Origin: Spartobacteria bacterium
GTDB taxonomy: Bacteria; Verrucomicrobiota; Verrucomicrobiia; Chthoniobacterales; UBA10450
DNA length: 43,025 nucleotides
Reading direction: 5' to 3'
NCBI GenBank assembly: GCA_003169975.1
Contig: PNAA01000030.1
Coordinates: forward strand, 1-43,025
In this document: positions 348 through 42,998 of the stretch, piece by piece
How positions within the stretch are numbered: the stretch's first letter is position 1
Layout of the letters: every line of letters begins with the position of its first letter
Notes under the pieces: generated by a model
Told to the model about the DNA's origin: nothing
Seen by the model: only the letters and a program-made list of their open reading frames with translations
Databases searched by the model: none
Translations under genes and position numbers: made by a program

Positions 348-2492
348 CTACTTCGCCGGCTTCATCCCGAGCTGCGCGAAGAGGAAGCTGTAGATGTCGG
401 CCTGCTGTTTGATTCGCTCGCTGAGCGCCGTGCCGATGCCGTGGCCGGCGCTGGTTGAAGTGCGCAACAGGATCGGATAATCCGACTTGTTCGCCGCCTG
501 CAGGCGGGCCGTCATCTTGCGCGAATGATAGGGCGCGACGCGGCCGTCGTTCGCACCCGTCATCATCAGGATCGCGGGATACTTCGTGCCGTCCGTGACG
601 TGGTGATAGGGCGAGTAGGCGTAGAGCGCCTTGAACTGATCCTCGTTCTTGACCGTGCCGAACTCGGTAACATTAAAGGCGCCATTCGGCGCCAACTCCA
701 CCCGCAACATGTCGTAGATTCCGACCGCCGACACGACCGAACGCATCAAGTCCGGGTGCTGAGTGATGAGGGCGCCCATGAGCAAACCGCCGTTGCTTCC
801 GCCCATCAGGGCCAGTTTGCTGGAGTTGGTATATTTTTTCTCGATGAGATATTGCGCCGCGGCCGCGAAATCATCGAAGACGTTTTGTTTTTTCGTGAGG
901 TTGCCGGCCTTATGCCACTCCTCGCCGAACTCGCCGCCGCCGCGAATGTTGGCCACGACATAGACGCCGCCACGGTCGAACCAGAGCCGCCGGGTAAAGT
1001 CGAAGCCCGGCGACATACTGATGCCGTATCCGCCGTAGCCGTAGAGCAGCGTCGGATTGTTACCGTCGAGCTGGGTGCCCTTCCGGCGCAGGATGTTGAG
1101 CGGCACCTTCGTCCCGTCCTTCGAAGGGGCAAACTCACGCGTCACTTCGATATCGGATAAGGAAACCGGTGACGTGCTGACAAGGGCCGTCTTCTCCGGC
1201 GCGAGCTGACCGGGCTTGACTTCAAACCAGGCCGCCGGCTCGGTGTAACTCACATCCCGAAAAAGGAGCGAGCCATCTTCCGGCGCGACAATCTCCTGCA
1301 CGTCGGAAACCGGAGGTACTGGAATGGTCTTCCCTTCCTTCCCGTCCAGGCCGAACCGCCGCACCTGGGATGGTCCGCCTAACAAATCAACGACATAGAG
1401 CGCATTGGCCGACGGCTCGAATTGTTCGACGACCGCCTCACTCGCGGGCACAATCTCAACCGCCTTGCTCAGCTCGGGATTATCCAGCAGCAATCGCAGG
1501 ACCTTGCCCCGCGGCGCGTCCGCGCGCGACAGGAGGTAGAGCGCGTTGTCCCGGCCGAGCCGCGCGAGTTTCACTTGATCGCTGAACTTCGTGATCTGTT
1601 TCCAGGCGCCATCCGGGCCGAGCAAGTAATGGGCAAAATCTCCGCCGTCGCCGTTCGCGACCGAGGCGAGGATATGTCTGCCGTCCTGCGAAGCTTCGAG
1701 CTTGATCTCGGCGATGCGCGGGAAGTCTTTGCCGATCGCATAAGTGTCGGCGCTGTCCGGCGTGCCGAGTTTGTGGAAATAAACCTGCTGATAAAAATTC
1801 AGGTCTTCATCGGGCCGATCGCCCTTGCGCGGGAAGCGCGTGTAATAGATGCCGGTCCCGGTCGCGTTCCAGGCGGCGCTCCCGCCGGCAGTGGGATATT
1901 GGACGTGCGCGATGGTGTCGCCGAGCTCCTTGCCCGTGACAACGTCGTAAAAGTGCAGGGTGCCATCTTCGCTTCCACCCTTGGAGAGGGAGACCGCGAC
2001 CTTGGTGCCGTTGAGCGACGGCTCAAACCAATCGATCGCCGTCGTTCCTTTGCTGTCGATCTGGTTGGGATCGACCAGCACTTTTTCCGATTTCAAATCG
2101 TTCGCTGAGGTCAGCTTGACCAACATGGGTTGTTGCTTCGGCGGCTGGAATTTCATGGCGAACAACATCCCCGGTCGCGCCACGATGGAGGAATAACTCG
2201 GCGAGGTCTTCGCGTACCAGTCTTTGAGCTGCTGCTCGATGGTCGCGTGCGACGACAGATTATCGAGATAGGCGCGCGTCTCTTTGTTCTCCGCGTCCGA
2301 CCATGCCTTGACCGCCGGGTCGGTATCATTCTCCAGCCATTGATAGTCGTCCTCCACTTTGGTCCCGTGATATTCGTTGAAAACCGGCTTCTTTTCCGCC
2401 ACCGGCACCGGTTTCGGTTCCGCGGCGGGAAGATTGATGATGGGCAATCCGAGGAGACTGAAGACGACGATCGAGCAACGAGTCAATTTCAT
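348..2492 (-). CDS. Prolyl oligopeptidase family serine peptidase (S9A), secreted
   Basis: A 714-residue protein if started at ATG 2490-2492; a TTG 48 bases further upstream is in frame, but the ATG is followed directly by a signal peptide (MKLTRCSIVVFSLLGL, cleavage probably after LPAA). The mature part starts with the S9A propeller signature (EDDYQWLEND). The C-terminal alpha/beta hydrolase domain carries the nucleophile in GGSNGG (codons near nt 797), the Asp in GANDGR (near nt 550) and the His in SAGHG (near nt 445). Length and order match prolyl oligopeptidases, which cleave short proline-containing peptides after Pro. Periplasmic location is inferred from the signal peptide. It stands alone, opposite to the IS fragment, and carries one GCCTAAC core at 1377. 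Confidence 0.9.
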   Translation of the reverse strand: MKLTRCSIVVFSLLGLPIINLPAAEPKPVPVAEKKPVFNEYHGTKVEDDYQWLENDTDPAVKAWSDAENKETRAYLDNLSSHATIEQQLKDWYAKTSPSYSSIVARPGMLFAMKFQPPKQQPMLVKLTSANDLKSEKVLVDPNQIDSKGTTAIDWFEPSLNGTKVAVSLSKGGSEDGTLHFYDVVTGKELGDTIAHVQYPTAGGSAAWNATGTGIYYTRFPRKGDRPDEDLNFYQQVYFHKLGTPDSADTYAIGKDFPRIAEIKLEASQDGRHILASVANGDGGDFAHYLLGPDGAWKQITKFSDQVKLARLGRDNALYLLSRADAPRGKVLRLLLDNPELSKAVEIVPASEAVVEQFEPSANALYVVDLLGGPSQVRRFGLDGKEGKTIPVPPVSDVQEIVAPEDGSLLFRDVSYTEPAAWFEVKPGQLAPEKTALVSTSPVSLSDIEVTREFAPSKDGTKVPLNILRRKGTQLDGNNPTLLYGYGGYGISMSPGFDFTRRLWFDRGGVYVVANIRGGGEFGEEWHKAGNLTKKQNVFDDFAAAAQYLIEKKYTNSSKLALMGGSNGGLLMGALITQHPDLMRSVVSAVGIYDMLRVELAPNGAFNVTEFGTVKNEDQFKALYAYSPYHHVTDGTKYPAILMMTGANDGRVAPYHSRKMTARLQAANKSDYPILLRTSTSAGHGIGTALSERIKQQADIYSFLFAQLGMKPAK

Positions 2493-2649
2493 AGTGACCG
2501 AGAACAACGTGCCAATCGGCCGTTCGCGCAACCCAATCAAGGACTAGCCCCAGCGGGTGTCCAGCGAGCGCGATTGCCTAACGAGATTTTGCGTTCTTGA
2601 TCACGGCGTGAAATCTCCACCGCCCAGCCGCCGGCATCTTCCGGCGGCC

Positions 2650-2702
2650 GTGATACCATCGGGGAGACGCAGCACCGGCACGACCGTCGCCGCGACCTGC
2701 AG
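2650..2702 (-). pseudogene. Fragment of a TolB-like/TPR gene (second membrane segment)
   Basis: The minus-strand translation reads LQVAATVVPVLRLPDGIT, nearly the same as MQVSATVVPALHLPDAIT at the N-terminus of the intact gene at 4170-5957. Only about 18 codons survive, with no start and no continuation. It abuts a plus-strand kinase remnant, so the region is a junction of two broken genes. The stretch 2493-2649 between it and the peptidase holds no gene; it does hold a GCCTAACGA nonamer at 2576-2584. Confidence 0.6.
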
Positions 2703-2710
2703 CCGATCGG

Positions 2711-3112
2711 GCGGCGAAGCTCTGGAAGATCGCTGTTCCCATCCTGCTCGTTGTCGCCCTCGCCGCACTCGGCTTTTATTACCGCTCACAACACAGCAAG
2801 CCACTGACCGAGAAGGACACCGTGCTTCTCGCTGATTTCTCGAATTCTACCGGCGATCCTGTCTTCGACGCCACGCTACGGCAAGGCTTGGCCGTGCAGC
2901 TCGAGCAGTCTCCTTTCCTGAAACTTGTATCCGACGCGCAAATCAGCCAGACCCTTCGTCTGATGGGCCAGCCGCCCGAGGCCAAGCTCACGCCGGAGAT
3001 CGCCCGGGATCTCGGCCAGCGCGTCGGGAGCAAGGCCTACATTGCCGGTTCGATTGCGAATCTCGGGAGCGACTACGTCATTGGTCTGCGCGCGGTCTAC
3101 TGCGGCAGGTAG
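2711..3112 (+). pseudogene. Remnant of a Ser/Thr kinase-TPR protein (membrane segment and TolB-like part)
   Basis: The plus-strand frame from 2711 gives a membrane segment (KIAVPILLVVALAALGFYY), then TVLLADFSNSTGDPVF, LRQGLAVQLEQSPFL and GSKAYIAGSIANLGSDYVI. This is the juxtamembrane and TolB-like region that follows the kinase domain in eukaryote-like kinases with TPR tails, known from Acidobacteria and Verrucomicrobia. Neither the kinase domain nor the TPR tail is present: the frame starts abruptly near 2711 and runs into foreign sequence after LRAVYC, near 3104. At that point the sequence switches to the 3' end of a minus-strand pseudogene. I read this as the scar of a deletion or recombination between two members of related families. 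Confidence 0.6.
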
Positions 3113-4173
3113 TGTGCGCTTCGGCAAGGGTATCGTCGATCTCCAGGGCCTTCTTCGCAGCGGCCTCGGCTAGCGGAAAGATTCCCGCGGCGTCGCGGCG
3201 CTGAAACCCGAGAGCAATAAATAGGAGTCACCAAGCCCCGCGGAGGCGAGCGCAAAGTTCGGATCCTTGTCGATGGCCTGCTGGAAATAACCGATCGCTT
3301 TTCGAAGATCGGGACCGGTGCGTTTGTTCCAAAAATATCTGCCTTTGAGATAAAATTCGTGGGCCTCGGTATTCTCCGTCGGTTGGACCGCGATGGCACG
3401 TTGCTCGGAACCTGTCAGCTTGGCGTGAAGCGTGTCGGCAACGATTTTCGCGATCTCGCTTTCGACGGCAAAGATGTCGGTCAGCTTGCGATCGTAGGTA
3501 TCGGCCCAGAGATTGGAATCATTGGCCGCCTGAATCAGCTGCACGTTCACGCGCACCGCCTCGCCCGACCGCTGCACACTTCCCTCCAGAATGTTTGCCA
3601 CCTCGAGTTGCTGCGCAATTTGCCGGAGATTTTCCGGAGAGTTTTGTAACGCTGCGTCGAGGTGCGTGAAATGACCTTGAGGTCCGCGATCTTTGACAAC
3701 CGGGTAAGAATTTCCTCCTGAATTCCATCGGCGAAATACGCGGCATCGGGATCGCGGCTCAGGTTTTCAAAAGGTAGCACCGCGATCGATTTCGCCGGCC
3801 ACTCGGAACCAGCAGTCTGCTTCCGAGCGGTGTAACGCCCCAGAAAAAACAAAGCGATCGACATTGCGCCCGCCACCACAATGACAAGAATCCAGGTACG
3901 ATTTGCAGATCGCCGCTGCGCTATGGCGTCCGCAACTTCGGTCCGTTTCAAACCTTCTGGCGTGAGTTCAAACGCCCAGCCGATCACGCAGGCTATGGGG
4001 AACCCGACGACAATCATGAGCACGATGAGCCGGACCGCCCAATTTGGAATTTCGAACACCGAAAAAACTTGTGTCGCGATCTGGATGAGCAACCACGCCA
4101 CGACGGCGTAGGCGACCGCGACCTTGTAAACATTGCGCCGCTTCAACTCGGCGAAAAAATTCTTTGGATTCAC
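3113..4173 (-). pseudogene. TolB-like domain/TPR membrane protein, frameshifted and truncated
   Basis: GTG start at 4171-4173, overlapping the TGA of the upstream gene (GTGA). Translation: FFAELKRRNVYKV membrane module, then AKSIAVLPFENLSRDPD and LKVISRTSTQRYK of the TolB-like domain. There the frame breaks: the A4 run (T4 at 3642-3645 on the plus strand) needs one more base to restore QRYKNSPENLRQIAQQL. The next frame runs through VANILEGSVQ, HEFYLKGRYFWNKRTG and ATPRESF. It breaks again near 3172, where one missing C gives TAG instead of the expected continuation LAEAAAKKALEIDD. Homology stops near 3113 at the junction with the kinase remnant. Two single-base deletions plus loss of most TPRs make this a pseudogene. 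Its closest relative is the intact neighbour at 4170-5957. Confidence 0.8.
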
Positions 4174-5957
4174 CGCGATGGCTCCGGCGATTCCGTCGTC
4201 CCTGGCGGGAAGATTTTTGCAACAAGCGCCTTGAAACGCGGGTCGCTGCGCAGTGGGTCGAGCAACGGCTCAACGCTAATGAATCTCAAGGCATCACCGG
4301 CGTGATCTTCGTAAGCCTTTTCGAGCCAGCGGAGCGCCTCCTCTTTGTCGCCGAGCCCGAGATAGACGAGAGCAAAGCTGTAGGCCGAGACATATCGCTG
4401 TTTGGATAGCGCCTCCAGCTGGTCCCGTATTTTCATTGCCTCGGTCTTGTTACCTGAGACGGCATAGGCGTGGGCGAGCAGTCCCAGCATCGAAGGATCG
4501 TCGTTCAACGCTCGTGCCTTCTGATACTCTTCAATCGCTGGGCCAAGAGCGCCCTTGGCCGCGAGCGCCGAACCAAGGTTCCAATGCGCGTAATAGAAAC
4601 CAGGGTCCATTTCCAGGGTCTTGCGCATCTGGTCGATCGCTTCTTCGTAACGCCGCGCCCGGTAGTAAGTGCTACCCAGGTCCGTGTTGATCACGAGCGA
4701 AAGGGGATCAAGCTCGATCCCGCGTTTCACCTCAGCGATCGCCTCATCGAACCGGCCCAGTGCGGCCAACCCGGAGCTGCCGTACCATTGGTGCGCGGTC
4801 GCATAGTTCGGATTCAGCTCAATCGCGCGCTGAAATTCCGTGATCGCTCGCGGGTAATCGAGATCATAGTAACAAAATACCTGCGCCAGTGAGGTATGCG
4901 CCTCGGCCGATGTATCGTCCAGTTCGAGAGCTTTCTTCGCGGCCGCCTTGGCCTTCGGATAACACTCTTGCGGGGTGCCCGCGCCATAGAGCGGCATTAA
5001 GACATAGGCGTCTGCCAGTCCTACGTAGGCAAGCGCGTATTTCGGGTCCGCGGCGATGGCTTGATTGAAGTAATCGGCTGCTTTGTTGAGGTTTTGGCCG
5101 GTCCGTTTGTTCCAGAAAAAGCGTCCTTTCAGATAAAGCTGGTACGCTTCTGTGTTCTCCGTCGGTCGCGCCGCAATTGCATGCTGTTCGGAGCCAGTCA
5201 GCTTGGCCTGAAGTGTTTCGGCGATCGTTCTGGCAATTTCGCTCTCGACCGCGAAGATATCAGTCAGCTCGCGGTCGAAAGTATCCGCCCAAAGATGAGT
5301 GTCGGTTGCGCCTTTAATTAGCTGCACGTTTACCCGCACCTTGTCGGCGGTACGTTGGACGCTTCCTTCCAAAACGTTCGCCACCCCAAGCTGCCCGGCA
5401 ATGGCCGGGACATCGTCAGGCGAACTCTTGAAACGCTGGGTGGAAGTACAGGAGATCACCTTCAAGTCGGCGATCTTTGCCAGTCGCGTAATGATCTCAT
5501 CCTGAATGCCGGCCGCGAAATAGGCATTGTCAGGATCGTGGCTGAGGTTCGCGAACGGAAGCACCGCGATCGATTTGGCGGAAGCCACGGTCGACTCCGC
5601 TCCTTTTGGACGCGCGAACTGATAGACTAACAGTGCTACCGCGAGGAGCGCAACGCCGGCGATGAATGCGGCAAACTTGCGCCGGCTCCACTGAGGGATA
5701 AACTCGTTAGGCGAAACGTCCTCCGTCCGCTTCATCCCGGTCGGCGTCATTTCAAAGGCCCAGGCGATGACGAGCGCGATCGGAAAACCGAGCAGCGTGA
5801 GCACCACAACCGTGGTCGTGATTGCATCGGGAAGATGAAGCGCCGGAACCACCGTGGCCGAGACCTGCATGACCAGCCAGCCGATGACCGCGTAGGCGAC
5901 CGCGACCTTGTAAACATTGCGCCGTTTCAGCTCGGCGAAGAAGTTGCGCGAGTTCAT
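4170..5957 (-). CDS. Membrane-anchored TolB-like (COG5616) domain protein with TPR repeats
   Basis: 595 residues, ATG start. Residues 1-70: FFAELKRRN module with two membrane segments; a third segment lies near 95-115. Residues about 128-270: TolB-like/FlgO-type domain (AKSIAVLPFANLSHDPD, GIQDEIITRL, GVANVLEGSVQ, HLWADTFDREL, FAVESEIARTI). The rest is a run of TPRs such as AYVGLADAYVLMPLYGAG and NLGSALAAKGALGPAIEEY. No catalytic motif is visible; TPRs suggest a protein-interaction or scaffold role at the inner membrane, but the biological function of this family is not known to me. It overlaps the downstream pseudogene by GTGA, so the two were translationally coupled. A TCGTTAGGC nonamer at 5704 encodes Pro-Asn-Glu just after the membrane module. 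Confidence 0.8.
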   Translation of the reverse strand: MNSRNFFAELKRRNVYKVAVAYAVIGWLVMQVSATVVPALHLPDAITTTVVVLTLLGFPIALVIAWAFEMTPTGMKRTEDVSPNEFIPQWSRRKFAAFIAGVALLAVALLVYQFARPKGAESTVASAKSIAVLPFANLSHDPDNAYFAAGIQDEIITRLAKIADLKVISCTSTQRFKSSPDDVPAIAGQLGVANVLEGSVQRTADKVRVNVQLIKGATDTHLWADTFDRELTDIFAVESEIARTIAETLQAKLTGSEQHAIAARPTENTEAYQLYLKGRFFWNKRTGQNLNKAADYFNQAIAADPKYALAYVGLADAYVLMPLYGAGTPQECYPKAKAAAKKALELDDTSAEAHTSLAQVFCYYDLDYPRAITEFQRAIELNPNYATAHQWYGSSGLAALGRFDEAIAEVKRGIELDPLSLVINTDLGSTYYRARRYEEAIDQMRKTLEMDPGFYYAHWNLGSALAAKGALGPAIEEYQKARALNDDPSMLGLLAHAYAVSGNKTEAMKIRDQLEALSKQRYVSAYSFALVYLGLGDKEEALRWLEKAYEDHAGDALRFISVEPLLDPLRSDPRFKALVAKIFPPGTTESPEPSR

Positions 5958-15887: not shown

Positions 15888-16679
15888 ATGAATGCGCGCA
15901 CCGCAAGATTGGCCAGTCTGCTCAGCCAGGCGGAGATCTGCTTGCCAATCTACCTGGAGAGAACGCAGGGATTGTCGCACGAGCCTAAGGGCATCCGGCG
16001 CAGCGAGATGTTTTTCTTCTATGCGTCAGTCGCGGATCTGAAGCCGGCCCGGATCCTCGAATCGGGCCGGGCCCGCGCCCAAAGCACACTCGTCCTGGCC
16101 AGGCTTTTCCCGCAAGCTTCAATCGTTAGTCTCGAGTCCGACGCCTCCTCCCCGGATGTCGCGATCGCGACCGAAAGATTGCGCGGTTGCCCAAATGTCG
16201 AGTGCCGCTTCGGCGATTCGCTCCTCCTCCTGCCGGAATTGGTCGCGGCGGGCGACGTCGTTTTGATTGATGGTCCGAAAGACTTCCGGGCGTTGAAACT
16301 CGCGTTTCGACTCCTCCGCGATGGCAAGCCCGCCGCCGTCTTTGTCCACGACCTGTGGCTCGGATCGCCCGCCCGCGGTTTTGTCGATCGTTCCGTCCCG
16401 TCCGCGGTCTTGAGCGATGATCCGGAATGGGTGCAACGCTACGCCTCGCTCGATTCCAGTCGCCGCGTTGCGCCCGCGGCGCCTAACGATCTCCACCGGG
16501 CCTACGGCGCGACCATGGGCTGCTTCCGTGGAGGTGATGAAAACTACGCGCGGCGATTGCTCCAGTGCAGCGCGGCGCAACTCATCGATCGCGCCCGCGA
16601 AACCGTCCGCCGAATTCGCCACCGGCCGGCGATTGTTAGGCCAAAAGACTTCGAGTCGGTGCCGCCGGACGAGTTGTAG
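15888..16679 (+). CDS. Class I SAM methyltransferase-like protein
   Basis: 263 residues from ATG 15888; two in-frame ATGs further upstream (15855 and 15825) are less likely because they overlap the divergent promoter region. The central part resembles a Rossmann fold of the Methyltransf_24 type: ARILESGRARAQSTLVLARL, then SIVSLESDASSPD, VECRFGDSLLLLPEL and DVVLIDGPKDF. The usual glycine-rich SAM loop is changed to ESGRARA, so binding is uncertain. No partner or substrate can be named. The last codons and the TAG stop lie inside an inverted repeat (16673-16754). GCCTAACGA at 16481 encodes Pro-Asn-Asp. Confidence 0.5.
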   Translation: MNARTARLASLLSQAEICLPIYLERTQGLSHEPKGIRRSEMFFFYASVADLKPARILESGRARAQSTLVLARLFPQASIVSLESDASSPDVAIATERLRGCPNVECRFGDSLLLLPELVAAGDVVLIDGPKDFRALKLAFRLLRDGKPAAVFVHDLWLGSPARGFVDRSVPSAVLSDDPEWVQRYASLDSSRRVAPAAPNDLHRAYGATMGCFRGGDENYARRLLQCSAAQLIDRARETVRRIRHRPAIVRPKDFESVPPDEL

Positions 16680-22031: not shown

Positions 22032-22262
22032 ATGTCTTCCTTCGCTCAAAACTCGCGTGTCTTCGGCTGGTTTCGCGCGCGCTACGGGCGCCCGACGCCG
22101 GCGTAGCGCGACGCCTGGCCGCGTCTTGCGCGAGGAGAAAACGTGCTCATCGCCTCGCCCACCGGCACGGGCAAGACGTTCGCCGCCTTTCTCTCCGTGC
22201 TCGATGCGCGCCGCGCGGTCTGGGTCGAGGAACAACAGGCGCTGCTCGTGGCCGATCTGCGT
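22032..22262 (+). pseudogene. 5' end of an Lhr-like DEAD/DEAH helicase gene, with a nonsense codon
   Basis: From ATG 22032 the frame reads VFGWFRARYGRPTPA, then TAG at 22104-22106, then RDAWPRLARGE, LIASPTGTGKTFAAFLSVLD. This is the Q-motif and Walker A start of Lhr-type helicases; the TAG replaces the conserved Gln of TPAQ, so CAG became TAG by one transition. Similarity ends near 22215 and the frame closes before the cassette boundary at 22405. The rest of the gene (normally more than 1400 codons) is missing. The stretch 22263-22404 holds no recognised gene. Confidence 0.6.
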
Positions 22263-22402
22263 AAAATGGTGCGCACCTGGTCGAGAAATTTTGGCTTGGC
22301 TCTTTCGCCTTTGTCGGGCAGGGTCGTTCTCATGCCTTCGGTTTATCCTGAACCCTCCCTCGTGAGCAACCGAAATAGGCGAATATCCGTTTCGTATACT
22401 AT

Positions 22403-22411
22403 CTGTTAGGC
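22403..22411 (+). other. Cassette boundary: attC/attI-type core site GTTAGGC
   Basis: GTTAGGC at 22405-22411 fits the integron core consensus GTTRRRY and lies 16 bases before the ATG of the small TPR gene. The same spacing (16 bases) separates the next core site from its gene at 22991. Short leaders of this kind are typical for gene cassettes. No matching left half (RYYYAAC) was found in the 150 bases upstream. A possible -10 box (tatact, 22396-22401 region) lies just before it. Confidence 0.5.
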
Positions 22412-22427
22412 CTACTCACGCGCACAC

Positions 22428-22850
22428 ATGGAGCCAGACATCAACCAGCAGATTCTTGCCGAGCTCAAAGGGCTCCGTCGGCTGACGCGTCGATCGTCGA
22501 TCACGGCTCTTATTCTCTTCGCCTTGTTCCTTGCAGCCAGCGTCTGGCAGATTCCTTCACACAACGACCCTTATGCGCGGGCTACCGCGGCTATGAAAGC
22601 GTCAGATTACCAAAAAGCGCTGAGCATCGTAGAGCCACTTGCCGTCCAGCATCCCGAAAACTATTACCACCACGAATACCTCGGCACAATTTACCTCGCG
22701 CTGGGCAACCCCGCGAAAGCCGAGGAAGAGTATTCGAAGGCGTATTCCCTCTATCCCTCCGAGAACTTGGCGAACATGTTGGTTACCGTTCGCAAGCGCC
22801 GCGCGTTGCAATCGCCGTCTCCCAATGCTACTCCTGTTGCGACCCCGTAG
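22428..22850 (+). CDS. Cassette-borne small membrane-anchored TPR protein
   Basis: 140 residues from ATG 22428. One N-terminal membrane segment (ITALILFALFLAASVWQI, about residues 25-42) after a short cytoplasmic head, then about two TPR helix pairs (AMKASDYQKALSIVEPLAV, YYHHEYLGTIYLALGNPAKAEEEYSKAYSL). The tail is Ser/Pro/Thr-rich. Stop TAG at 22848-22850 is followed directly by GTCTAAC, the left core of the attC-like site. It is bounded on both sides by integron core sites, so it behaves as a gene cassette of 564 bases. Function unknown; cassette-encoded proteins of this size are mostly uncharacterised. Confidence 0.75.
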   Translation: MEPDINQQILAELKGLRRLTRRSSITALILFALFLAASVWQIPSHNDPYARATAAMKASDYQKALSIVEPLAVQHPENYYHHEYLGTIYLALGNPAKAEEEYSKAYSLYPSENLANMLVTVRKRRALQSPSPNATPVATP

Positions 22851-22974
22851 GTCTAACCAGACGATGGAGCCGACGGCGAGCCGGTGTTATATCTAGTTTT
22901 CTCATGACTTCCTTTCCTCATCCTGCTGCGATGCGCGCCCTCGCTCGCAGCAGCTCATCTTGTTCTCGTTAGGC
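22851..22974 (+). other. attC-like recombination site of a gene cassette
   Basis: 124 bases from GTCTAAC (22851-22857, R-box type RYYYAAC) to GTTAGGC (22968-22974, GTTRRRY). The two ends can pair: the left arm reads GTCTAACCAGAC, then GATGGAGC, then GGCGAGC. The complement of the right arm reads GCCTAACGAGAAC, then GATGAGC, then TGCGAGC, so blocks match with single unpaired bases, as in folded bottom-strand attC sites. The centre is not conserved. Length is in the upper part of the known range (about 55-145). The opening ctaaccagacgatg is repeated at the end of the next cassette. Confidence 0.7.
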
Positions 22975-22990
22975 CGCAGTCCCGCACCAC

Positions 22991-23734
22991 ATGAAGATGC
23001 AACCTTGGCTACAGTGGCTAGGTCGACATTTCCAAGGGCATGTTTTTCTCTTTGAAGCAAAGCGTCCGCTGCCCGTATACGATTCTTCGGCTGGCCTTCG
23101 ATTGTTACTAATCTTCATCCTGCTTGAGGGTGTAATTGGTCCCAGGTTGCCTCTCTGCCGCGTTTTCGGACTGCCTCTCCCACCGACTTGGCTTCGCGTA
23201 CCGGTCCTTCTTGTCTTGGCGATGGTCTTGGTCCGGTTCTTCGCCGGGATGAGGCTAGCACAGATCGGCCTCTTTCGCTGGACAGATTGGAGTGTGACAG
23301 AGAAGTCTTACTTCGTTCAAGTGTTCCTGATCGCGAACGTCGTCTTCGGCATTCTCTTCGCGGAGCGTTTGCAGATGATCTTGGCTGACCTCGGCTTTTG
23401 GTGGCGCCCCGCGGCGGTTGTCATTTTCACCAACTTTCTGTGGGGGTTCCATCAGGAGTTGGTGTACCGCGGAATTCTTCAAACGGAACTGGTGCGGCGT
23501 TGGGGCTCTCTCGTGGGCATTCTGGTCAGCAACTTGTTCTTCACCTTCGGTCCTTTGCATTTCTACCACTTCTCGGGCGTGCCCGGACGGGTATTCCCAA
23601 TGTTTACGGGGATTTTTTTGATCGGGTTGTTTTTTGGAGTGTTGTTCAGGAGATCAGGCAATCTCGCTATCGTTAGTGTTCTTCATGGATTGGGCAATTG
23701 CTACATTGACGGTCTCAGCACACTTGGACTCTGA
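22991..23734 (+). CDS. Cassette-borne CPBP-family intramembrane protease
   Basis: 247 residues from ATG 22991, 16 bases after the core site. About seven membrane segments. The CPBP (Abi/Rce1-like) motifs are present in order: HQELVYRG (the EExxxR motif, with Gln in place of the first Glu), TFGPLHFYHF (FxxxH) and LHGLGNCY (HxxxN). CPBP proteases cleave membrane or CAAX-type substrates; in bacteria they often serve bacteriocin self-immunity or maturation. The Glu to Gln change is seen in some bacterial members, so activity is uncertain. Its GC content is lower than that of the core genes, in line with acquired DNA. A variant of the dispersed word (TCGTTAGTG) occurs at 23670. Confidence 0.75.
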   Translation: MKMQPWLQWLGRHFQGHVFLFEAKRPLPVYDSSAGLRLLLIFILLEGVIGPRLPLCRVFGLPLPPTWLRVPVLLVLAMVLVRFFAGMRLAQIGLFRWTDWSVTEKSYFVQVFLIANVVFGILFAERLQMILADLGFWWRPAAVVIFTNFLWGFHQELVYRGILQTELVRRWGSLVGILVSNLFFTFGPLHFYHFSGVPGRVFPMFTGIFLIGLFFGVLFRRSGNLAIVSVLHGLGNCYIDGLSTLGL

Positions 23735-23844
23735 GGTTGAACACGGAGCCTTCTACCGCCGCTAAACCACTCCTCAAGCATTCTTTGGTTTTAGCCACTC
23801 GCCCGTCCGAGTTACAGTTTGGCACTGGAACGAATACACGAACG

Positions 23845-23870
23845 GCCTAACCAGACGATGCAGACATGTG
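23845..23870 (+). other. Left half of a second attC-like site, truncated
   Basis: GCCTAACCAGACGATG at 23845-23860 repeats 14 bases (ctaaccagacgatg) of the attC-like site at 22851. It lies 110 bases after the stop of the CPBP gene. After about 25 bases the similarity ends and IS110-type sequence begins. The element probably inserted into the attC site or deleted its right half. The spacer 23735-23844 holds no gene. Confidence 0.6.
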
Positions 23871-23929: not shown

Positions 23930-24944
23930 TTAGCGGAGGGGTTTGGGGAACCGTGGTTCCCCAATTGTCTCTTCTTTTTTCAAGGGTAACTCTGGAGGAG
24001 GGAGAGTTTTTGTTCCAGGAAGGCGATCTTGCTGGGATAGCCGAGGGCCTTGATCGCGGGCAGGCCGAGGTCGGTGGCGAGTTTGCCCAGCTTGGTCTGG
24101 AGGCGAGGGAGCGGTTCGAGGGCGCCAATGACATGGCCCTGGAGGACATGCCAGAGGGCGACGCAGAGTTTGCGCGCCGCCGCCTTCGTAGTTGCCGCTC
24201 TGGCAGACGCTCGGGTTCAAGCCCAGGTAAGCGACCAGCTTGTTGCTCTGGGCAAAACGCTGGATGTCGCCGATGGCGGACTGCAAGCCGTAGATGGTGA
24301 CCAGACTCAGGCCGCAGAGGCGGGCCAGGCGCAGCATCTCTGGGTCGTTCAGGATTTCTCCGGCCATGTGCCGGCGCAGCTCGCTCCGGCGCCCGTTGTC
24401 CCAGTAGCATCGTTTGCACCGGGCTCCAGGTCCGCACCTTGGCCTGACGATTCATCGCCGTGGGATGACAAAGGCGGAAGCCCTTGGGCAGTCGCACACA
24501 GTGTTCGCCCTAGCATGCTTTTAAGTTGTTGCTGGAGCCGGGTGCTTTCTTTCACCACCCCTTGATAGGCGCTAAAGACTTCCCGCCGTTCGGAAGTCTG
24601 CGCATCGGGTTGCCAGACCACGGCGGAGAGGCCGCTCAGATAGATCCGTGCGATTTTGACCGCGTCGACCCGGTCATTGGCGCAGTAGACTTTGCCGATC
24701 TTGCCCCGCTGTCGAGGATCGCGACTTGGCGACCGAGCGCCCGCAGCCGCCCCGCCACCGCGAAGGCGTTGCCGCTCGCTTCCAGCACGAGCGTATCGTC
24801 TTTGCTGGTGTGGCGCTCAGCCCAGCGCTCCAGTTCTTTGAGATCCACCCGCGTGGAAGTGCTCAAAACCCGCGCGCGCGCCGGCCCGGCCGTGGTGGCG
24901 CTACACCGCGAAGCGGAAAGCCAGGCTCGGCCCGAAGCCGTCAT
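23930..24944 (-). pseudogene. IS110-family transposase, multiply frameshifted
   Basis: Reading from 24944 down: TLVLEASGNAFAVAGRLRAL of the DEDD (RuvC-like) domain, a frameshift, then KVYCANDRVDAVKIARIYLS and VVKESTRLQQQLKSML. Another shift leads to HCVRLPKGFRLCHPTAMN and RTWSPVQTMLL, another to MAGEILNDPEMLRLARL and LVTIYGLQSAIGDIQRF with the C-terminal Transposase_20 signature (KLVAYLGLNPS, then SGNY). After GGGA the frame shifts again. At least four frame changes mean no functional transposase. IS110 elements lack inverted ends, so limits are only approximate; the element may start near 23870. Confidence 0.8.
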
Positions 24945-26220: not shown

Positions 26221-26229
26221 TGGTTAGGC
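26221..26229 (-). other. Cassette end: R-box GCCTAAC containing the stop codon
   Basis: On the minus strand the gene at 26829-26224 ends with gtg gcc taa, and these bases form GCCTAAC (RYYYAAC) followed by catgcctccgagc. The stop codon inside the core site is typical of gene cassettes. The other half of an attC site was not found downstream, between 26080 and 26220. Confidence 0.5.
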
Positions 26230-26829
26230 CACATGTCTATCAATAGTTGATGATATGTCTTCAATAATCTTCTTTTGCTTGTCAACAATTTGGCGGTCAA
26301 AGCTGGGCTCGGCCTGGCGAATTATTTCGAGAACGTCCAATTCTCGACGTGCGAGTGTCAATAGATCCTTACGCACTGCTGCCGCCTGACATCCCATGGC
26401 TTTGACGAGTCTTTCGCGTGTCTCTCCGCCTAGGCTCTGGATGTAAGCCACATTAAGCGCTTTCAAAGACTCTATTCCACTTAGAACGATCTGAATATGA
26501 GATGAGTAAGATATGTATATGTGGGCGTTGTAAGTATCGAGTTCCGCAAGTCGATTTGCAAATTCGACCAGACCCCCTGGAATGTCGAATGTCACTGTGA
26601 CAAGCTTGTTCGCGCTCGCCGCCGTCGCGATCCGGCCGATCGTGTCGACGGATCTAATGAAATTTCCCTGTGCATCGCTAATGCTGCGCCACAGAGACAT
26701 CCGTTTCGCATTGCGCTCAAGGCGATTCTCATAGGCGAGTTTTGCCCATATCAGCACTAGCGCGAACGCAAAAGGAACGCATAGTTTGAGCACATCGGCC
26801 CAAGTCAATAATGTGTTTGGCTGTGGCAT
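26224..26829 (-). CDS. Cassette-type hypothetical protein with one membrane segment
   Basis: 201 residues from ATG 26827-26829. N-terminal membrane segment VLKLCVPFAFALVLIWAKL (about residues 13-32), then a mostly helical, charged soluble part (RLERNAKRMSLWRSISDAQG, LDVLEIIRQAEPSF, DKQKKIIEDISSTIDRH) that may form coiled coils. I do not recognise the family. Its base composition is poorer in GC than the surrounding core genes. It is bounded by core sites GTTAGGC upstream (26876-26882, minus) and GCCTAAC at its stop, so it fits a gene cassette lying opposite to the two at 22.4-23.9 kb. Confidence 0.65.
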   Translation of the reverse strand: MPQPNTLLTWADVLKLCVPFAFALVLIWAKLAYENRLERNAKRMSLWRSISDAQGNFIRSVDTIGRIATAASANKLVTVTFDIPGGLVEFANRLAELDTYNAHIYISYSSHIQIVLSGIESLKALNVAYIQSLGGETRERLVKAMGCQAAAVRKDLLTLARRELDVLEIIRQAEPSFDRQIVDKQKKIIEDISSTIDRHVA

Positions 26830-26875
26830 CGTGTTTGGCTTGACGGATCAAGGGCAGAGAGACATGGATTTTGAG

Positions 26876-27050
26876 GCCTAACATGAAAAGGGCGGAAGAC
26901 TGGAACGCATAACGCGCAATGAGTCCGCCTAATTTGCAGCGCTGCGAGGCAGGCGAACGGGGAACCCGGAATGGAGCCCACGGGGGCGGTGCGACATAGG
27001 CGTGCGTAGCATAGGCGGAGCCCAAGACCTGGGTGGGTCGAGCCATTCAT
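26876..27050 (-). repeat. attC-like or dispersed repeat upstream of the minus-strand cassette
   Basis: On the minus strand the stretch ends in GTTAGGC (26882-26876), 47 bases before the ATG at 26829. Upstream lie tgcgcgttatgcgttcc and gctccgcctatgctacgc with a partly palindromic look (gccgcctaat/attaggcgg, cctatgctacgcacgcctatg). The layout is that of a long or composite recombination site, but a clear left R-box is missing. Its translations (for example THPGLGLRLCYARLCR) look familiar as spurious proteins in related genomes, which suggests a multi-copy sequence. The rest of 27051-27168 holds no gene. Confidence 0.35.
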
Positions 27051-42474: not shown

Positions 42475-42529
42475 GTCCTACCACCGCTGGCGGGAGCGAG
42501 CGTGGCAAACACCAAGATCTGTTTCATAA

Positions 42530-42583
42530 AATCAAATGTGGACCGCACAACGGCCAGCGGTTGGCTCCAGCGATTGGTTAGGT
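42530..42583 (-). other. Half attC-like site after the lipoprotein gene
   Basis: On the minus strand the lipoprotein gene ends with TGA, one G, then ACCTAAC (RYYYAAC, 42583-42577), then caatcgctggagccaaccgc and tggccgttgtgcgg. The position directly after the stop is that of an attC left end. No GTTRRRY partner was found before the RAYT element at 42474, which may have split or replaced it. The bases 42475-42529 hold no gene. Confidence 0.45.
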
Positions 42584-42584
42584 C

Positions 42585-42998
42585 TCATTGGGCGGTGTGT
42601 ATGGTGTCGGGCCGTTCGACGCGCACTGCACGTCCGCCAAACTCTTGAGCTAGACCAGCGGTCAAAAGCTGCTCGGCTCTGACGTACTCAGGCGGCGTCG
42701 GGCCGAAGCCGGCGGAAAGATCAACGAGGATGTCGCCACCCACCTCTCGTGCGCCAAGCTCGACGGCAAAATGCCTGACGTCTGGTTGCGTGTAAAACAC
42801 GACTGTGTTTGGAGCGTGCGAGCTCGAGGTGTGGTCTGCAAGAGGTATCTGAGTCGCGACGGAGCGGAGAACCTGCTTTACCTTGGCGCGTTCAACGCTG
42901 CTTGCTCCGGCGATGCGATACTGCCGGACGTTCACGGTGTCGCAGGAAGCGAGTAAAAGAACCGCCAACAGGAGTAGTAATCGAGTGATGTGCGTCAT
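42585..42998 (-). CDS. Small lipoprotein, possibly cassette-borne
   Basis: 137 residues from ATG 42996-42998. Lipoprotein signal peptide with lipobox (LLLLLAVLLLASC, Cys19), so lipid-anchored, probably in the outer membrane. The mature part is soluble (VERAKVKQVLRSVATQIPLA, VRHFAVELGAREVGGDILVD, FGPTPPEYVRAEQLLTAGLA). I do not recognise a family. The attC-like half-site after its stop suggests a gene cassette. Its upstream end lies at the window edge, so a core site there could not be checked. Confidence 0.7.
   Translation of the reverse strand: MTHITRLLLLLAVLLLASCDTVNVRQYRIAGASSVERAKVKQVLRSVATQIPLADHTSSSHAPNTVVFYTQPDVRHFAVELGAREVGGDILVDLSAGFGPTPPEYVRAEQLLTAGLAQEFGGRAVRVERPDTIHTAQ

Follow-up and report, generated by a model that had tools for sequence, protein, structure and literature searches.

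A probable decayed chromosomal integron with two gene cassettes, and a candidate DNA uptake word, in Chthoniobacterales

The window analyzed in this study, meaning the whole 43,025-nucleotide stretch of contig PNAA01000030.1, contains a short series of plus-strand features that opens with a GTTAGGC core (22405-22411). Checking of the sequence placed the ATG of a gene for a 140-aa TPR protein (22428-22850, plus strand, with Pfam TPR matches) 16 bases beyond this core. The TAG stop of this gene directly abuts the GTCTAAC at 22851 that begins a complete attC site of 124 bases (attC1, 22851-22974, plus strand), which has GTTAGGC as its right end. Another 16 bases lead to the ATG at 22991 of a gene for a 247-aa homologue of CPBP-family membrane proteases (22991-23734, plus strand; PF02517, Rce1/CPBP, E 4.5e-13). 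This arrangement, from the core and its spacings to the CPBP gene, had been described in a first-pass annotation of the same DNA and was confirmed at all coordinates. In integrons, IntI recombines attI with the attC bottom strand and cuts after the G of GTT; therefore, cassette 1 extends from 22406 to 22968 (plus strand), bounded on the left by the core of attI and on the right by the R' core of attC1, and cassette 2 starts at 22969. The two cassettes lie in tandem and in one direction with an ORF ending at attC, as in integrons.

Directly upstream of cassette 1, homology identifies positions 22259-22411 as the first 25 codons of intI together with the attI of a full-length integron on another contig of the same genome, C43. 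The minus-strand translation of 22259-22333 gives the first 25 IntI residues, MRTTLPDKGERAKPKFLDQVRTILR, and this 5' remnant of intI aligns with the heads on contigs C43, C30, C46 and C49. Beside intI, where an integron carries it, lies the attI region (22355-22411, plus strand, including the core at 22405-22411), which was aligned with the four other heads and is almost unchanged across the genome's five. On C43, the bases ahead of the first cassette, upstream of intI, read ACCGAAATAGGCGAATACCCGTTTCGTATACTATCTGTTAGGC; window positions 22369-22411 differ from them at one base, and the homology continues past the start codon into the 25 intI codons on the minus strand. It ends at about 22259, and past codon 25 the window sequence becomes a fragment of a DEAD-box-type helicase gene (22143-22258, plus strand; PF00270) that is fused to the cut intI; the ORF at 22143-22409 matches PF00270 with an E-value of 3.5e-5, slightly below the family cut-off. 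The integrase gene expected of an integron is accordingly represented in the 43 kb window by 25 codons only.

The first-pass annotation had recorded the GTTAGGC at 22405 as an integron-type core. The core itself stands, and judged by its sequence context it is an attI core rather than an attC core; ATCT precedes it, unlike the TC of a word that is repeated throughout the genome. Because intI is cut after codon 25 and attI is present, the window represents an integron with a truncated intI and not a set of cassettes without a platform. The earlier proposal of an attC cluster lacking an integrase, or of insertion at a secondary site, was therefore abandoned on account of these upstream remnants. 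No sigma-70 consensus promoter was found at attI in 22250-22500, and promoters of this phylum may differ from that consensus.

A profile search of the same genome with TIGR02249 (cut-off 265 bits) returned full-length IntI on C43 (441.5 bits) and on C33 (480.7 bits), the latter being an additional and different intI, as well as an interrupted intI on C30. Searching with the 83-aa window ORF retrieved the same IntI start on C43, C30, C46 and C49. Counting the window's own contig (C25), the genome contains at least five related heads, each with an intI start and attI, that align with one another; intI is full-length on C43 alone among these five, and most of the heads have a broken intI. On C43 and C49, attC sites of the window type sit directly after attI and cassettes. 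Contigs C43, C33 and C46 each break off at the identical sequence GTTCTCGTTGATATGGCT, immediately 3' of an attC, so that a repeated cassette or insertion interrupts the assembly there. Additionally, one attC on C43 (L019:18400-18560) is split by an insert with the ends GAGGCTGTGTGA and TCACACAGCCTC, which is probably a small transposable element.

Sites of the attC type are known to be laid out as R''/L''/L'/R' boxes with an unpaired G. In attC1 these boxes read GTCTAAC (R''), GATGGAGC (L''), GCTCATC (L') and GTTAGGC (R'), and L'' carries one unpaired (extrahelical) G. Related sites were collected from the same genome and from Chthoniobacterales contigs located via the IntI protein. Since the first alignment included the window's attC, a covariance model (R2) was built from seven other sites with that one left out, and this model matched attC1 at 107.3 bits (E 4.8e-25). 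A covariance search had been suggested in the first-pass annotation, with calls predicted at 22851-22974 and near 23845; the former was obtained at this score, and the latter gave only a stub. An Rfam search of the window returned zero matches. Within the alignment of the attC family, 91% of cells are paired, both sides have changed in 10 of 22 pairs, and the covariation score is 0.317 compared with at most 0.093 for controls in which the partners were slid by 1-3 columns, in support of the helices as drawn and of the conserved architecture of integron attC sites. The single-stranded DNA fold of attC1 is not more stable than that of shuffles (z -0.51), and fold energy was dropped as evidence because of this lack of difference; the case for attC1 is built on homology and covariation.

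The covariance model yields 26 attC matches in the genome. This attC type was found in 25 of 25 searched genomes of the family (this one included), each with at least one site, and some sites lie in other families of the order, including families without the 9-base word TCGTTAGGC. The Chthoniobacterales class has the right end ...CTTGTTCTCGTTAGRY; for the right end TCGTTAGRY, TCGTTAGGC is the GC form. The window contains 35 copies of the GTTAGGC 7-mer, of which 25 belong to TCGTTAGGC, and bare GTTAGGC is worthless as evidence in this genome because TCGTTAGGC is repeated genome-wide. A match of a home-made attC scanner at 16481-16641, a pair of GTTAGGC words within genes, was discarded because the covariance model gives no match there.

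The second site, attC2, is a left stub only (23845-23865, plus strand, GCCTAACCAGACGATGCAG; 10.2 bits, E 0.12) that breaks off after about 20 bases, followed by the adjoining remnant of an IS110-type transposase (23930-24367, minus strand; PF02371, E 7.6e-9). As claimed earlier, attC2 at 23845 has the 14-mer CTAACCAGACGATG in common with attC1. The genome search that was proposed together with this claim recovered intI and further attC sites; the anticipated additional copies of the 14-mer did not appear, as the 4.47 Mb genome holds two in total, both in the window. The first-pass annotation would have given up its cassette reading had the covariance model found no match and had the 14-mer stood only beside paralogues of one gene; a match was obtained, and the genes beside the two copies of the 14-mer are unrelated to each other. 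The 10-mer AGACATGTGG is present at the attC2 break (23861-23870, plus strand) and at the end of the ORF of a third candidate cassette (26240-26231, minus strand), and its opposite directions may mark an inversion.

The CPBP gene has a patchy distribution. A copy with 77% identity was found in just one other genome (G010, from a different genus), such that the gene is present in 2 of 39 genomes. DNA similarity between the window and G010 begins a few bases ahead of the CPBP ATG, within the cassette, and the G010 gene is preceded by an attC-like site, ATCTAACCATCC..., that is itself located 3' of a different ORF. The patchy distribution, the attC-like site ahead of the gene in G010 and the point at which similarity starts combine to give the expected look of a mobile cassette. 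The description of the locus as gene cassettes with attC sites was thus borne out by the leave-one-out model, the four boxes, the contact of stop and core, and the CPBP gene of G010.

One further cassette and a weaker candidate are indicated in the window. A candidate third cassette in reverse direction (26223-26882, minus strand) is proposed from sequence only; it has a GTTAGGC start and a 201-aa ORF (26224-26829) whose stop lies within GCCTAACCATGC. No attC arm was recognisable at this candidate (6.8 bits with the covariance model, not significant), and a search of 38 genomes for relatives of its protein came back empty. The contig's right end carries another cassette, at 42481-42998 (minus strand), which comprises a 137-aa ORF (42585-42998) and, directly after it, an attC at 42583-42481 that is without its right end and was matched by R2 at 51.7 bits (E 4.4e-11).

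Based on the homology of intI and attI, the identity of attC, the order of the cassettes and the full-length intI genes elsewhere in the genome, the locus is very probably a decayed chromosomal integron of a soil-type bacterium in Chthoniobacterales (Verrucomicrobiota), consisting of attI, two cassettes, one complete attC and a truncated intI. A 43 kb window without a full intI, containing one complete attC plus stubs, could also be described as an attC cluster without integrase (CALIN) or as one isolated attC (SALIN), in either case lacking an integron platform here. However, cassette 1 is immediately preceded by attI and the first 25 codons of intI. A CALIN is defined by two or more complete attC sites in the absence of a platform, whereas this place has one complete attC and an attI/intI remnant; this description is considered very improbable and would require a chimeric contig join at 22411.

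Lower still is the likelihood that an integrase acting in trans placed the cassettes at a secondary genomic site of the GTT-like attG type. Off-target integrase sites are known, attG being the name given to them (PMC12901181), and about 2,000 words of the GTTAGGC type are available in the genome, but cassette 1 is flanked on its left by the primary site, attI, with its core after ATCT and not TC. The non-attI left flank that would characterize attG was thus not found for cassettes 1 and 2; the candidate at 26223-26882 may be a secondary-site insertion. The slimmest chance is given to a fortuitous palindrome, with frequent GTTAGGC words happening to surround two unremarkable genes, which would agree with the 35 copies in the window and the ordinary fold energy, yet the independently built model returned an E-value of 4.8e-25 and the contact between stop and core is exact. 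Additionally, the assembly may be chimeric at about 22259 or about 23865, the contig being from a probable metagenome bin.

For the decayed integron, the following history is proposed. IntI would once have placed the promoterless cassettes, encoding the TPR protein and the CPBP-family protease homologue, at attI through attI x attC recombination. A later deletion or rearrangement may have fused intI after codon 25 to the helicase-like fragment, and the end of the array appears to have been severed inside the second attC, beside the IS110-type remnant. The surviving parts are attI, cassette 1 with its attC intact, and cassette 2, of whose attC a stub is left. Although no local enzyme can act, IntI from C43 or C33 could serve these sites in trans, and the cassettes may be transcribed from a promoter at attI.

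The word TCGTTAGGC, which is identical to the attC right end in its GC form, was followed through genome searches and 0.42 Mb of sequence used for word statistics. Genome-wide it is present in 981 + 999 copies (1,980), compared with 31 + 30 (61) for the reversed word. In the 0.42 Mb it is the commonest 9-mer, with 172 copies against 1 to 22 for its single-base neighbours, and its copies are equal between strands. Examples among the 25 copies in the window are found at 5704, 10936, 18266, 29793, 33987 and 40593 (all plus strand). Counts range from 1,410 to 4,605 in other genomes of the genus, from 1 to 19 in the order's other families and from 0 to 29 in the phylum's other sampled genomes, apart from a single genus that reaches 61 to 133 copies in about 6 Mb; within the sampled phylum, the word is confined almost wholly to one Chthoniobacterales family. 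In eight genomes of sister genera, a different word, TGTCGATCTT, reaches 606 to 4,653 copies, compared with 19 to 29 per genome in the genus studied here. Both words are abundant in one of the sister genomes, G014 (1,802 and 4,653 copies, respectively), and G016 is another sister genome with TGTCGATCTT.

These counts describe extreme over-representation on both strands and a lineage-bound distribution with dialects, two marks of an uptake sequence, and suggest that TCGTTAGGC, with TGTCGATCTT in sister genera, is somewhat more probably than otherwise a DNA uptake word of this family. Copies inside ORFs amount to 138 of 172 (approximately 80%), slightly below the expectation from 88% coding sequence (p 0.003). 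A small sample of alignments with a congener showed 10 of 22 sites of the word to be conserved, compared with 10.5% for random 9-mers (p 3e-5). Only 2 copies fall within the 19 kb surrounding the C43 integron (p 0.009). The ComEC-type Competence domain (PF03772) is encoded in the genome and also in nearly all relatives without TCGTTAGGC.

Other roles for the word were considered and set aside. Its copies do not resemble attC remnants, as they have no partner arm, are mostly coding, in stop-avoiding frames, and are enriched in the AGGC form alone. A Chi- or KOPS-like role is unlikely because strand counts are balanced (53/52 on C58 and 22/20 on C42). A direct link between word density and the right ends of attC is weak, with the exact TCGTTAGGC at 17 of 55 right ends in word-rich and 10 of 64 in word-poor genomes (p 0.05). 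The match between TCGTTAGGC and the attC right end may be coincidental, and a functional link of the uptake word to attC is speculative. It is doubtful, though conceivable, that attC sites ending in the uptake word tag cassettes for uptake, so that the integron would draw on natural transformation. Geothrix fuzhouensis (G053) carries, on one strand, 35 copies of TCGTTAGGC; 34 of these fall in a 55 kb stretch surrounding its intI, probably a large attC array.

A literature search returned nothing relevant on TCGTTAGGC, or on uptake sequences in Verrucomicrobia or together with integrons. To our knowledge, DNA uptake sequences are established in Neisseriaceae and Pasteurellaceae only, and a candidate in Verrucomicrobiota would therefore be new, if confirmed. 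The word with its dialects is the more surprising result of this study and, again if confirmed, would outweigh the integron in importance. Compared with the uptake sequences of those two families (PMC3630211), the candidate is alike in being a word of 9-10 bases with thousands of copies on both strands, and in being tied to a family, having genus dialects and including one genome with two words. It differs in that the two words are without an obvious common core, in its phylum, and in being known from sequence alone.

Broken intI genes, several intI per genome and lineage-specific attC classes are already documented for integrons. Inactivation affects about one third of intI genes, and about one fifth of integron carriers have more than one integrase gene (PMC2426708). 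The locus resembles the 'pseudo-integrons' of that survey, which does not name Verrucomicrobiota, in its attI, attC, cassettes in one direction, inactivated intI and several intI per genome; here, however, at least five related heads are found in one genome, most with a broken intI, and the intI of the window has been truncated to 25 codons instead of carrying a frameshift. With CALIN and SALIN loci it shares the few attC sites and the lack of a functional intI nearby, but it additionally has attI and the intI remnant. Lineage-specific attC classes have been documented and modelled for each of 11 taxa, with Verrucomicrobia absent (PMC8352920). The window's class is like these in being a lineage-bound family with conserved R''/L''/L'/R' boxes and its own covariance model; it is distinguished by its ...CTTGTTCTCGTTAGRY end and belongs to a group without any of the 11 models. 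Overall, the results point to a lineage-wide integron system in Chthoniobacterales, an order unnamed in both integron surveys (PMC2426708, PMC8352920), with its own attC class, for which a covariance model has now been obtained, and with several decayed heads in a single genome.
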